NCBI GenBank assembly: GCA_028695415.1
Contig: JAQVIY010000005.1
Coordinates: 1-56,854 of the forward strand
Direction of reading: 5' to 3'
Length of the DNA stretch: 56,854 nucleotides
Source of the DNA: Minisyncoccota bacterium
GTDB lineage: Bacteria; Patescibacteriota; Minisyncoccia; Phycocordibacterales; Phycocordibacteraceae
Numbering within the stretch: the stretch's first letter is position 1; the number at the start of each line of letters is the position of its first letter. The position numbers and the translations under genes are program-made. The notes under the pieces were generated by a model that had not been told where the DNA came from, did no database searches, and saw only the letters and a list, made by a program, of their open reading frames with translations. Shown one piece after another: positions 5,050 through 52,098 of the stretch.

Positions 5050-5091
5050 AAGCAAAGAGAAACGCCCCGTGAGGGGCGTTTCTCTTTGCTT
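5050..5091. terminator. Bidirectional terminator, 19-bp perfect stem
   Basis: Arms at 5050-5068 and 5073-5091 are perfectly complementary (inner part GAAACGCCCC/GGGGCGTTTC, loop GTGA), followed by TATTTTTT. It serves cspA (+) and overlaps the stop of the convergent SET gene (-). Confidence 0.9.
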
Positions 5092-24643: not shown

Positions 24644-24678
24644 AAACGAAAAATCCCCTCAACGGGGATTTTTCGTTT
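24644..24678. terminator. Intrinsic terminator of the RRM gene
   Basis: A 15-bp stem (inner part AAAAATCCCC/GGGGATTTTT) with T-rich right arm. It directly follows the distal, presumed ancestral, end of the RRM gene. Confidence 0.85.
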
Positions 24679-24738: not shown

Positions 24739-25438
24739 TTATGCTCTCACATACAAGAAGGCTTGATGCGGATGGAACAATTCTTTGATCGACTTCTCAC
24801 ACCAGGAGAAAACCTCGGCGCCTCGATCGTACTGGATTCCTTTCACACAGGGCAAGCCGTTGATTATAAAGACAGAACCTGGGAAATATACTTCGCGTAG
24901 CCATCCGAATTGTTTAAATAACCACATCAAGACTCGCAAGTTGTCTTTCCAGAACAGGACGTGGGCTATGTGTGCATCGAGCGGTATCATGCCGGGCCAG
25001 TTGGCGGGATCAAGACGCGCGAGACCGGTCGACGACCTGTCGTGACCCGTCTGCATCCACACACGTTTGAAATCAATCCGCTCGAGCTCCAACGATTCTT
25101 GATTCTCGGCAGGCTCCCCTTCGAGTCCCGTTCCGGCAAACGAACCTCGCCAGATACGCAGGTCAAACTCGTGATGCAACTCCTGCCGATCCAGAAACAA
25201 GAGCGTCTCGCTCGGCATAGTACAGGCGTGTCCATTGAGGAGCATCCGGATCGCTTCGGCCAGCGCCAATTCGAGCCGTTCAGGATCGCTCGTGAACTTC
25301 AAGACTCGTTTCGGATCCTGATCGTTTCCCCGTAGATGCCTCGTGAGTGCCTGCGGAATCGACCTCAAGATTCGACTCGTTAGTTCACCTAATTGTTGAA
25401 TTTTCCACTGGTAGGCTATTCCATGATTCTTCAACATG
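24739..25438 (-). CDS. Unknown soluble protein (Shine-Dalgarno class)
   Basis: A 232-residue protein beginning MLKNHGIAYQWKIQQLGE and ending HPHQAFLYVRA. It is Trp- and His-rich with no membrane segment and no motif I recognise. The frame is open upstream, but ATG 25438 has AAAGGA 7 nt before it and is taken as the start. It is bounded by its own terminator and its codon use is less GC-biased than that of its neighbours, as in the other small Shine-Dalgarno-led genes here. Its start region overlaps any long version of the PrmC frame on the other strand. Confidence 0.6.
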
Positions 25439-25530
25439 GCTTTTCCTTTCGTGTGTTGAAGGACTCCGACGGCTGTCGGTCTATCCGCAATCACCTTGCG
25501 CTCGTTTCAGATTCCTGTCAATCTCTCCTG

Positions 25531-26310
25531 ATGGACGAAACTCCGGAGGCATACCGATACGGCTGGCAGCCGTTCTTCGGCTTGCATATCCATTTGGACA
25601 GCAAACCGCTCATCCCCCGCCCCGAGACCGAGTGGTGGGCTGAACAATTGTTCATCGAGCTCGAAGGGCATGTGGGTATGGCGGCGTCCGCAGCGCCGAG
25701 TCGACAGGTTTCCGAGACGAGAGTCTCACAGCGCGACGGCGCGAGAGGAGGCGATTTTTCAGCAGAAAAATACGCCGCTCTCGTCGAGGGAACTGTCGAT
25801 TCGGCGCGATACACGTTTCTCGATCTATGCGCAGGGTCGGGAGCTATCGGCTGCGCCGCGCTCAAGGCACTTCCACATGCAGAAGTATACTTCGGCGAGA
25901 TTGACCCGGCGCACGAAGCGACAATTTTGAAAAACATCCGCGAGAATAACCTGGACGCTTCAAGAGCGCACGTCTCTATCGGCGACCTCTTCGAGCCATT
26001 TGCCGACATATCGTTCGATGTCATCGCTATAAACCCGCCCTACATTCCCGCCGACCGAGCACTCGATAGAAGCGTCGCTGACTACGAGCCGGCGCTCGCC
26101 TTGCGCTCTGGCGCAGATGGCCTTGACCTCATTCGCCGTATCGCGCTCGAGCTCCCGAAGCACCTCGCGCCGAGCGGTATAGCATGGATAGAAGTTGACA
26201 GCCCCTCTGCCGAGGCGGCTCGAGCGCTCTTTGCTACTCAAGGACTCAAAGCTGAGATACGCACTGATCAATACGACAGACCCCGCGTTATCGTTGTATC
26301 ATTCCCCTAA
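25531..26310 (+). CDS. prmC: PrmC/HemK-like release-factor glutamine methyltransferase
   Basis: The conserved lead-in PLIPRPETEWW is followed by the SAM site FLDLCAGSGAIGCAAL and the catalytic NPPY (AINPPYIPA), with the C-terminal fold ending YDRPRVIVVSF. PrmC methylates the GGQ glutamine of peptide release factors. Between EWW and the SAM motif there is an extra segment of about 45 residues (25670-25800) with local inverted repeats that looks inserted. The N-terminal helical domain is short or missing; the frame is open to 25393, but that overlaps the divergent gene. Confidence 0.75.
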   Translation: MDETPEAYRYGWQPFFGLHIHLDSKPLIPRPETEWWAEQLFIELEGHVGMAASAAPSRQVSETRVSQRDGARGGDFSAEKYAALVEGTVDSARYTFLDLCAGSGAIGCAALKALPHAEVYFGEIDPAHEATILKNIRENNLDASRAHVSIGDLFEPFADISFDVIAINPPYIPADRALDRSVADYEPALALRSGADGLDLIRRIALELPKHLAPSGIAWIEVDSPSAEAARALFATQGLKAEIRTDQYDRPRVIVVSFP

Positions 26311-42140: not shown

Positions 42141-42453
42141 GTCGTGAGTGGCTGAATCTTTTAATGTCACACAAATATACAAATGCGAACGCACGGAAAT
42201 AAATCCGCCTGCGCTATTGCGTTTCTTTCTTCTCCCGTATAAGCTCCCCGCCCCGTTAGAAATCTGATTTCTAACGGGGCCCGCCCTCCGCTACTCAGTC
42301 GTATCTATGCTCGTATAGTATCAGCCGGCAGTATTTCACGCAACCCAGCCGCATATGGGGATATCCGGACCTTTGACTTTCCTCGATTACATGGTAATGT
42401 GTGCGCATGCGGAATGTCCGCACCCTTGATCTTTGATCTGAAAGGAGACTCTT
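42141..42453. promoter_or_regulatory. Intergenic region before rpoB: leader and 31-nt palindrome
   Basis: On the minus strand this is the rpoBC leader, with TATATT near 42175 and AT-rich sequence up to the ATG. A near-perfect palindrome at 42250-42280 has 15-bp arms (GCCCCGTTAGAAATC and its complement) around one base and no T-run. On the plus strand it holds the promoter side of the 42454 gene, a small hairpin TGCGGA/TCCGCA (42408-42422) and its Shine-Dalgarno. No further gene was found. Confidence 0.5.
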
Positions 42454-43419: not shown

Positions 43420-44115
43420 CTACTTACTTTTGCGCCACTTGTCAATCTTCGCGTGGTGGCCGGTCTGGAGGACTTTGGGCACCTTATATTTTTTATCCTT
43501 ATACAAAATAGTTTCGGGGCGGGTGTAGACGGCGCTTGAGGCAATACGGCGCTCTTCTACCGACGCATCTTTACCGAGCACGCCGGGCAGGCGGCGCGTG
43601 ACCGCGTCTACGATAGCAAGCGCCGGCACTTCCCCGCCGGTGTAGACTGCCTCACCTACTGCATACTCCTTCACCGACGCGAGCGTCTTCAGCATCTTCT
43701 TCGCCCGTTCGTCGATACCCTCGTAGCGGCCGCACACGAGCACGACATCGGTATATTTCGCGAGCTTGTCGGCCTCTTTGTTCGTAAACTGCTTCCCGCT
43801 CGGACTAAACCACACGACGGCAACCTTATTTCTACGACCGTGTGAATTAAGGTTTTTCGATTTCGCAGATGACTTGGAGACTCGTCCTTTAAGCGCTTTT
43901 TCGACGGCTCGGACGACCGGAAGCGCCGTCATCACCATCCCTGGCCCGCCGCCATAAGGGCGCTCGTCTACCTTGCCCCACTTGTTGAGGGCGTAATCGC
44001 GCGGGGTCTGATACGTTACGGAAATCTTCTTCTCTTTGCGCGCACGCCCGATAATAGACGCACTCAAGTATGCGTCGCATGCTTCGGGGAAAAGGGTGAT
44101 GAGATGAAATTTCAT
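43420..44115 (-). CDS. trmD: tRNA (guanine-N1)-methyltransferase
   Basis: 231 residues beginning MKFHLITLFPEACDAY, with WGKVDERPYGGGPGMVM, the SPOUT knot with VVLVCGRYEGIDERAKKM and YAVGEAVYTGGEVPALAIVDAVTRRLPGVLG. It methylates G37 of tRNAs. There is a basic insert (KGRVSKSSAKSKNLNSHGRR) before the knot. ATG 44115 lies 11 nt after a 146-nt structured element. The rpsP-KH-trmD order is the usual ribosomal/tRNA operon. Confidence 0.94.
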   Translation of the reverse strand: MKFHLITLFPEACDAYLSASIIGRARKEKKISVTYQTPRDYALNKWGKVDERPYGGGPGMVMTALPVVRAVEKALKGRVSKSSAKSKNLNSHGRRNKVAVVWFSPSGKQFTNKEADKLAKYTDVVLVCGRYEGIDERAKKMLKTLASVKEYAVGEAVYTGGEVPALAIVDAVTRRLPGVLGKDASVEERRIASSAVYTRPETILYKDKKYKVPKVLQTGHHAKIDKWRKSK

Positions 44116-44126
44116 AGAGAGAGCGA

Positions 44127-44272
44127 GGCGTATGGAAATTTTGAGACTCTCGGAGCCGGAGCAGCATGGTAATTGCAGCGCCGTAGGGCAGCCGCGCTGC
44201 AATTTGCGACGGCGAGAGTGAGCGCGTTTTGTCGCTGGACAAAACGACGCGTGCTCAAAATTTCCATACGCC
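44127..44272 (-). ncRNA. Candidate structured element: three-way junction before trmD
   Basis: Outer stem of 19 perfect base pairs (44127-44145, GGCGTATGGAAATTTTGAG, with 44254-44272) closes a junction. One branch is a hairpin of 11 bp with one bulged base (44223-44233 with 44238-44249, loop GCTG). The other has ACTCTCG/CGAGAGT (44146-44152 with 44213-44219) plus CCG/CGG, then an 11-bp AATTGCAGCGC stem (44171-44181 with 44194-44204). The element fills the space between the KH gene and trmD. It could be a leader regulator, processed RNA or small mobile element. Confidence 0.7.
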
Positions 44273-44278
44273 GAACGA

Positions 44279-44578
44279 TTACAATTCCTCGACTACCTGA
44301 TCGACTGTCTTCATCTCGGGAGAACGAGTGCCGCCGACCGGTTCATTGATCTTCAGGTTCACACGCGCGTTCCCTTTCATACCGGCAACGCGTAGGAGGA
44401 TGCGGAGCGCCTCGGCGGTCTTCCCGCTCTTGCCGATAATCTTGCCCATATCGTCGGGGTGAGTAGTGAGGGTCAGAAGGACGCCCATCTGATCAATAGT
44501 GCGCGTCGTCTCGACCGCCTCGGGGTGGTCGACGATGGCCTTCACGGTGTATTCGAGAAGCGCTTGGTCAGGTTCCAT
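44279..44578 (-). CDS. KH-domain RNA-binding protein (KhpA/YlqC-like)
   Basis: A 99-residue protein with a single KH fold of the type found between rpsP and trmD: LLEYTVKAIVDHPEAVETTRT, then the GxxG loop GKIIGKSGKTAEALRILLR. KhpA binds small RNAs and mRNAs in other bacteria. The C-terminal part adds about 25 residues. The start is ATG 44578; a TATTTG box ends 6 nt before it. Confidence 0.9.
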   Translation of the reverse strand: MEPDQALLEYTVKAIVDHPEAVETTRTIDQMGVLLTLTTHPDDMGKIIGKSGKTAEALRILLRVAGMKGNARVNLKINEPVGGTRSPEMKTVDQVVEEL

Positions 44579-51279: not shown

Positions 51280-51969
51280 TCACCAGCCCATCTTGTCGAG
51301 TGCGTTTTGCGCGGCAGCTTGTTCTGCTTCTTGCTTGCTCTGCCCTTCTCCGCGGGCGATTTCATCGCGGCCGATGAACACACCCACGGTAAAGCGTTTA
51401 TCATGGTCGGGACCTACTTCTGACAGCGTCTCATACGCAGGTGTCATGCCCCGCTTCTCCTGCGCGACTTCTTGGAAACGGCTCTTCGCGTCCTGATAGC
51501 TCTTCTTCGCTATCACCTCATCAATCTTCTGATACAGATGCTTCGCGATAAACGCTTCGGCGGCCGTATAACCCGCGTCGAGATATATCGCGCCGATAAT
51601 CGCCTCGAAGGCATCGGCGAGTATCACCTCTCGTGCGCGCCCGGTATCCTTCGACTCGCCTTTCGAGAGCAACAAAAAATCATTCACTCCGAGCATCTGC
51701 GAGCTCTCCGCGAGCGAGACGGTGTTGACGAGCGCGGCGCGGTACGCAGTGAGCTCGCCCTCGGTCTTCGCGGGGAACTTCCTGAAGAGAAAATCGGTTA
51801 CCGCGAGTTCAAGCACGGCGTCGCCGAGAAACTCGAGCCGCTCGTTGTGTGCGCCTGCGTACTCGCGATGCTCATTCAAATACGAGCGGTGCGTCAAGGC
51901 CTCGATAAGGAGGTCGAGATTGTTGAACGAAAGGCCGAGATGTTTTTCGAGATTAGAGAAATCAGGCAT
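51280..51969 (-). CDS. rnc: Ribonuclease III
   Basis: 229 residues beginning MPDFSNLEKHLG. The catalytic signature is ERLEFLGDAVLELAV, with ILADAFEAIIGAIYLDAGY, then a C-terminal dsRNA-binding domain (FQEVAQEKRGMTPAYETLSE...KQEAEQAAAQNALDKMG). It cleaves double-stranded RNA. The ATG at 51969 is overlapped by a small upstream ORF that has its own TATAAT box. An in-frame ATG at 51987 is possible. Confidence 0.95.
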   Translation of the reverse strand: MPDFSNLEKHLGLSFNNLDLLIEALTHRSYLNEHREYAGAHNERLEFLGDAVLELAVTDFLFRKFPAKTEGELTAYRAALVNTVSLAESSQMLGVNDFLLLSKGESKDTGRAREVILADAFEAIIGAIYLDAGYTAAEAFIAKHLYQKIDEVIAKKSYQDAKSRFQEVAQEKRGMTPAYETLSEVGPDHDKRFTVGVFIGRDEIARGEGQSKQEAEQAAAQNALDKMGW

Positions 51970-52024
51970 ACCCGGTGAGGACAACAAGGCATTGCTCCTC
52001 GTGTCTGGCGTATTTACATTTCAT
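51962..52024 (-). CDS. Upstream ORF overlapping rnc start (20 aa, ends VVLTGYA)
   Basis: ATG 52024 lies 6 nt after TATAAT (52036-52031), giving a leaderless small ORF that ends 8 nt inside rnc with CLVVLTGYA*. Compare the frame before the exonuclease at 28446. The DNA before the rnc start (51968-51992) is also repeated in inverse orientation at 52079-52104. Confidence 0.45.
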   Translation of the reverse strand: MKCKYARHEEQCLVVLTGYA

Positions 52025-52098
52025 AATGCAATTATATCTTTTTGTACAAAAAATACATCTCTTCGGTCGGAGCAATGGCACGATGCCTTGTTGTCCTA
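51978..52098. repeat. Inverted repeat around the nusB-rnc junction
   Basis: A 15-nt perfect arm, AGGACAACAAGGCAT, occurs at 51978-51992 (plus strand) and in the opposite orientation at 52083-52097, with TGCTCC/GGAGCA close by on the inner side. The loop holds the TATAAT promoter of the rnc leader. The right arm overlaps the nusB stop. Confidence 0.6.

Follow-up and report, generated by a model that had tools for sequence, protein, structure and literature searches.

A dispersed family of small palindromic elements, apparently mobile, between and within genes of Patescibacteria

What is the intricately folded 146-nt segment that fills the gap between a KH-domain gene and trmD in a Minisyncoccota bacterium? 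The window, i.e., the whole 56,854-nt stretch that was analysed, had received an initial annotation from sequence, which described the segment as a three-way junction lying 11 nt before trmD, paired beyond chance and unlike any known riboswitch or leader. Three readings were offered: control of trmD translation, an RNase III processing site (with rnc encoded nearby), or a mobile hairpin element. The structural description was correct in its coordinates, length, 19-bp closing stem, 11-bp arm and one-bulge hairpin, as were the location between the two genes and the proximity of rnc (Table 1). The + strand is the one on which folding appears to have been selected, and the − strand is codirectional with the KH-trmD operon. 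In branch 1, the 11-bp apical stem pairs 44171-44181 with 44194-44204. The minimum free energy of 44127-44272 was −84.3 kcal/mol on + and −78.6 kcal/mol on −, corresponding to z scores of −8.8 and −9.5, and either value was reached by 0 of 200 dinucleotide shuffles. A comparison with Rfam 15 gave no match at the gathering score and nothing relevant at E ≤ 1, and no sign of a terminator with a U-tract was detected there. Elsewhere in the window, long perfect simple hairpins of 15 to 21 bp occur at 2732-2777, 5050-5091, 24644-24678 and 42250-42280, of which the second has a run of T behind it and is terminator-like. Another long palindrome, with 15-bp perfect arms 90 nt apart inside a longer imperfect stem, lies at the nusB/rnc boundary (51978-52097).

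Table 1. Features of the element, its neighbours and the second copy in the window
Feature	Position	Strand	Details
Whole element	44127..44272	+	146 nt; match of covariance model R2 at 44136-44263 on −, 140.4 bits
Closing stem, 5' arm	44127..44145	+	19/19 complementary; outer part locus-specific, inner ATTTTGAG common to copies
Closing stem, 3' arm	44254..44272	+	Pairs with 44127-44145, perfect 19 bp
Branch 1, long imperfect hairpin	44146..44219	+	Conserved CTCTCGGAG and GCATGGT bulge motifs; 11-bp apical stem; from predicted structure and conservation
Branch 2 hairpin	44222..44250	+	9 bp, one bulged base, 3 bp; loop CGCTGG conserved on +
trmD, downstream gene	43420..44115	−	PF01746; start 44115, element 11 nt upstream
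KH-domain protein (KhpA-like), upstream gene	44279..44578	−	PF13083; stop codon 6 nt before element
rnc	51283-51987		PF14622
Second copy, short form, in frame within prmC	25693..25807	+	Arms GCGCCGAGTCGACAG / CTGTCGATTCGGCGC; R2 match at 25712-25789 on −, E 1.8e-7; fold; insert relative to orthologues
prmC, release-factor glutamine methyltransferase-like, host of second copy	25393..26310	+	Best NCBIfam match TIGR03534, E 1e-44, below its curated cut-off (152.9 vs 199.1 bits); PDB hemK matches

The initial annotation had recommended a covariance-model search for further copies and a look for compensatory changes, and both were found. By BLAST, 38 of 93 congeners matched the element region, in either orientation and at numerous loci, the weakest of them through short matches to flanking coding sequence only. 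Covariance model R1, built from 43 copies (alignment A2), detected between 1 and 10 copies in each of 30 genomes among the 92 congeners. One of these is another full-length copy in the genome of the window (G000:C14:19965-20091), and across the order the model found relatives in 20 of 165 genera. The broader model R2, used for a phylum-wide genome sample, identified relatives in 28 of 380 genomes, representing 26 of 313 sampled genera, G407 and G732 having 9 copies each. An exact core pattern, which would miss diverged forms, was present on 26 contigs among 84,980 species genomes, whose titles name, for example, Parcubacteria, Kaiserbacteria, Nomurabacteria, Paceibacterota or bacterial MAGs. 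The same pattern had no occurrence in IMG/VR, a distant blastn search of phage and plasmid records gave no match, and no description of the family was found in the open-access literature. Altogether, the element, about 80 to 160 bp in size, belongs to a dispersed and previously uncatalogued family of small palindromic elements, apparently mobile, in the tiny genomes of Patescibacteria.

Gain and loss were evident at two orthologous sites. In most congeners, no more than a short spacer separates the lepA stop from an apparent promoter box, TATACT, of the gene downstream. The site is filled by a 159-bp element in G052, by a different subtype at the same place in G048 and G082, by an apparent half remnant in G070, and by a simple hairpin in G024 and G010. 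At KH|trmD, among the 30 best trmD loci, the gap is absent in about a third, a full-length element is found in G000 and G068, another in G076 and shortened ones in G054 and G037, while the remaining loci include different palindromes in the gap. The presence or absence of the element at both sites, with other subtypes at the same spots, indicates by sequence comparison recurrent insertion, i.e., gain and loss at micro-sites; a transposition event itself was not observed. Together with the scattered copies, this pattern supports the suggestion of a mobile hairpin element. Short CGYTC-like repeats flank several copies, none of them consistent, and the ancestral lepA spacer comprises only a few nucleotides. 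At several loci a copy is present even in distant relatives; some copies must therefore be old and may have been retained for a function, which counts against the mobile reading.

Three further observations concern these sites and genomes. At the lepA site, in L254, L257, L260 and others, TATACT stands only a few nucleotides before the ATG and directly after the previous stop, as in apparent leaderless promoters. A 3.1-kb stretch of G052 and G048 (L009/L008) is 98.7% identical, against an identity of only about 90% between the two genomes at lepA, which reflects either recent transfer or assembly cross-contamination. In the KH|trmD gap, L073, L091, L094 and L095 carry a second palindrome family with the core GCGTTWCGC...GCACTAAGCG and locus-specific arms, and further palindrome types are present in L074/L082 and L089/L094.

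It had also been anticipated that copies scattered without relation to genes would denote a mobile repeat rather than a regulator. The copies are indeed scattered, but they are not unrelated to genes: of 94, 55 lie behind a gene in the sense orientation and 11 in the antisense one, and 44 of the 55 sense-placed copies begin 4 to 15 nt past the stop codon. In 55 of the 66 classified copies, the + type strand runs against the sense of the upstream gene. In the phylum-level set, the sense-to-antisense ratio was 15:10, which does not clearly repeat the 55:11 bias. Many of the upstream genes, assigned by eye, are core-like by sequence (rpoD, dnaB, gyrB, recA, ftsZ, rpoC, lepA, clpB, rpsA, and others). 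This placement bias may reflect tolerated insertion spots in compact genomes.

The same placement would fit a cis-acting RNA structure of the sense transcript, located just past stop codons and serving to stabilise the 3' end, to terminate transcription or to mark an RNase III processing site, a role of the kind suggested for REP sequences. The core character of most upstream genes, the apical loops, which on the sense strand are often C(UNCG)G, and the presence of rnc are all in line with such a role, and REPs that lie no more than 15 nt from an ORF have been tied to translational control (PMC12306157). However, the wobble pairs point the other way. Counted over the arms of an initial 89 copies, the sense strand had 20 G.T against 61 A.C pairs (P = 6e-6), and counting by independent locus groups gave 7 against 32, with 1 against 7 in antisense-placed copies. 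The result was replicated in 45 further copies across the phylum (13 against 46; P = 2e-5). By the combined count of 33 against 107, wobble pairs are kept about 3:1 on the strand that runs against the sense of the upstream gene (P = 3e-10); these P values assume independent pairs and are weakened by shared ancestry, an effect lessened by the grouped test. An A.C pair on either strand reads as G.T on its complement, so it is the + type strand that keeps the tolerable mismatch, and the sense strand shows the opposite of the trace expected from RNA selection. Strand-asymmetric mutation bias could imitate part of this asymmetry, and four-fold sites display a mild skew of C over G. Because the wobbles are kept on the strand opposite to gene sense, an element of the sense mRNA is not the simplest reading, and folding of one DNA strand is favoured. 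Moreover, a terminator lacks its U-tract at this locus, the same gene ends are without the element in most congeners, and copies inside prmC have the other orientation. An RNase III site is not needed for explaining the distribution of copies, and overall we regard a function in the sense transcript as unlikely.

The second copy in the window is an in-frame insert of prmC (Table 1). Among 30 genomes with good prmC matches, G000 included, the linker from PETEWWxEQLL to LDLCA measures 3 to 21 nt in 8 and 42 to 222 nt in 22, with all inserts in frame. Eight inserts matched the covariance model at E < 1e-4, and in 8 of 8 the + type strand is coding. Other inserts belong to a second palindrome family with the peptide ..VVRLGxAARSATEN... 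The prmC linker is thus an insertion hotspot in the genus, used by several palindrome families.

The core of the element is constrained by its fold. On the sense strand (window −), the consensus reads arm-GAGYACGCGTC-hairpin (loop CCWGCG)-CGCGCTCACTCTCG-branch-CTCCGAGAGYCTC-arm. Two-sided changes were seen in 29 of 39 pairs, and the covariation score was 0.485, compared to 0.144 after shuffling and ≤0.112 for slid partners. At one junction position, G.A and A.G are swapped on the + type strand (33 and 22 copies). Cores that are 92 to 94% identical, with 25-bp arms that can be aligned, occur at non-orthologous loci in genomes whose lepA identity is only about 72 to 77%. The outer arms (10 to 31 bp), on the other hand, vary in sequence among loci and retain self-complementarity, for example, over 29/29 positions in L201, 27/27 in L200 and 26/26 in L240. 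Because L009, L034 and L035, which lie at unrelated loci and have cores 88 to 94% identical, possess alignable 25-bp arms, the outer arms would seem to be part of the mobile unit and to drift freely while staying complementary. A copying of the arms from the target at each insertion is not supported by these alignable arms and is countered as well by the orthologous copies following rpoD (L012, L014, L036 and L056), whose arms have drifted with compensation. A nearest-neighbour test of cores by locus or genome was uninformative because the inner stems are drifting too. Separately, three copies in G686 (L209, L248 and L249) have nearly identical arms, unlike the usual locus-specific ones.

The size, palindromy, multiple copies and presence/absence pattern would also suit a MITE, a non-autonomous transposon mobilised by an ordinary DDE transposase that binds its terminal inverted repeats, and bacterial MITEs such as Correia, ERIC and RUP are likewise small, structured, non-autonomous and multicopy. 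Those families have fixed terminal repeats, often with TA at the ends (PMC2229807, Table 1 therein), whereas here the termini are variable and the constant part is the internal core. With outer arms unrelated between most loci and no consistent target-site duplication seen, a conventional MITE is improbable.

A mobilising enzyme was sought among known types. No Y1 (RAYT) transposase was found in G000, G076 (10 copies), G075, G034 or G061. No dedicated tyrosine recombinase or integron integrase tracks the copies; carriers and noncarriers mostly have one Xer-like protein, and G543, with 5 copies, has no Xer-type tyrosine recombinase. Reverse transcriptases did not co-occur with copies either. 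All three enzyme types were rejected as mobilisers for want of co-occurrence, and passive spread through DNA uptake is possible. Integron attC sites follow a folded-strand logic, are located behind stop codons and have sequence-variable stems with unpaired bases, and the present elements resemble them in each respect, including selection on the strand opposite to gene sense; they differ in having neither cassettes nor a dedicated integrase, their hosts being core genes, and in that the conserved part is the tip of the fold, not its base. REP/BIME sequences with RAYTs are also palindromic, extragenic, scattered and close behind stop codons. REPs measure 20 to 40 bp, mostly with a GTAG or CGTC tag (PMC3733652); the Patescibacteria element is an 80- to 160-nt three-way junction, not a tagged hairpin of that size. 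Thus, a recombination site of the attC or REP/RAYT kind with a known enzyme type is highly improbable, and equally so is a trmD-specific leader or regulator, which has the position 11 nt before trmD in its favour and is refuted as a general explanation by copies that follow unrelated genes and by the many congeners without a KH-trmD gap. The proposed control of trmD translation falls with it, and the link of the element to trmD is incidental.

We therefore favour, with a probability of roughly 0.7, the reading that 44127-44272 is a copy of a small non-autonomous mobile palindromic element, in which the three-way core is conserved, one strand folds and an enzyme acting in trans moves it. The + type strand would fold most likely as single-stranded DNA exposed in replication, repair or DNA uptake, and the trans-supplied enzyme would recognise the folded core. 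The element would thereby be moved into tolerated positions, chiefly behind stop codons and in protein linkers such as that of PrmC. Its copy in the KH-trmD operon would be a passenger, and whatever influence it had on the expression of trmD or the stability of the mRNA would be secondary. More tentatively, there may exist a phylum-wide mobile class acting as a folded single DNA strand, with an enzyme-recognised core and arms of any self-complementary sequence, by which gene ends and PrmC linkers are repeatedly rewritten.

Among known systems, Rickettsia palindromic elements (RPE) are the closest analogue, and the Patescibacteria family may be called RPE-like by description, not by sequence homology. 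RPEs are long stem-loop palindromes of about 100 to 150 bp, with several families per lineage; besides the intergenic copies there are others that lie in frame within conserved protein-coding genes and give rise to a recurring peptide (Ogata et al. 2000, reviewed in PMC2229807 and PMC10969869). The element described here is likewise palindromic, multicopy and of about this length, lies both between genes and in frame within conserved protein genes, and shares the plurality of families per lineage and the reduced genomes of host-dependent bacteria. It differs in its phylum, its covariation-supported three-way-junction core, its unfixed arms, the strand-specific conservation of wobbles, the many copies 4 to 15 nt past stops and the prmC hotspot.

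Mobile elements of this small, palindromic kind that insert into protein genes had been known as a speciality of Rickettsia and Wolbachia. A structurally constrained, unrelated-looking family across Patescibacteria, with hotspots and a clear strand preference, suggests that such elements recur in streamlined, host-dependent bacteria. The conserved core, the pairs of empty and filled sites, and the prmC hotspot provide a handle for finding the enzyme that moves them. Furthermore, unexplained intergenic structures or protein inserts in Patescibacteria should be checked for such elements before a riboswitch or a new domain is called.
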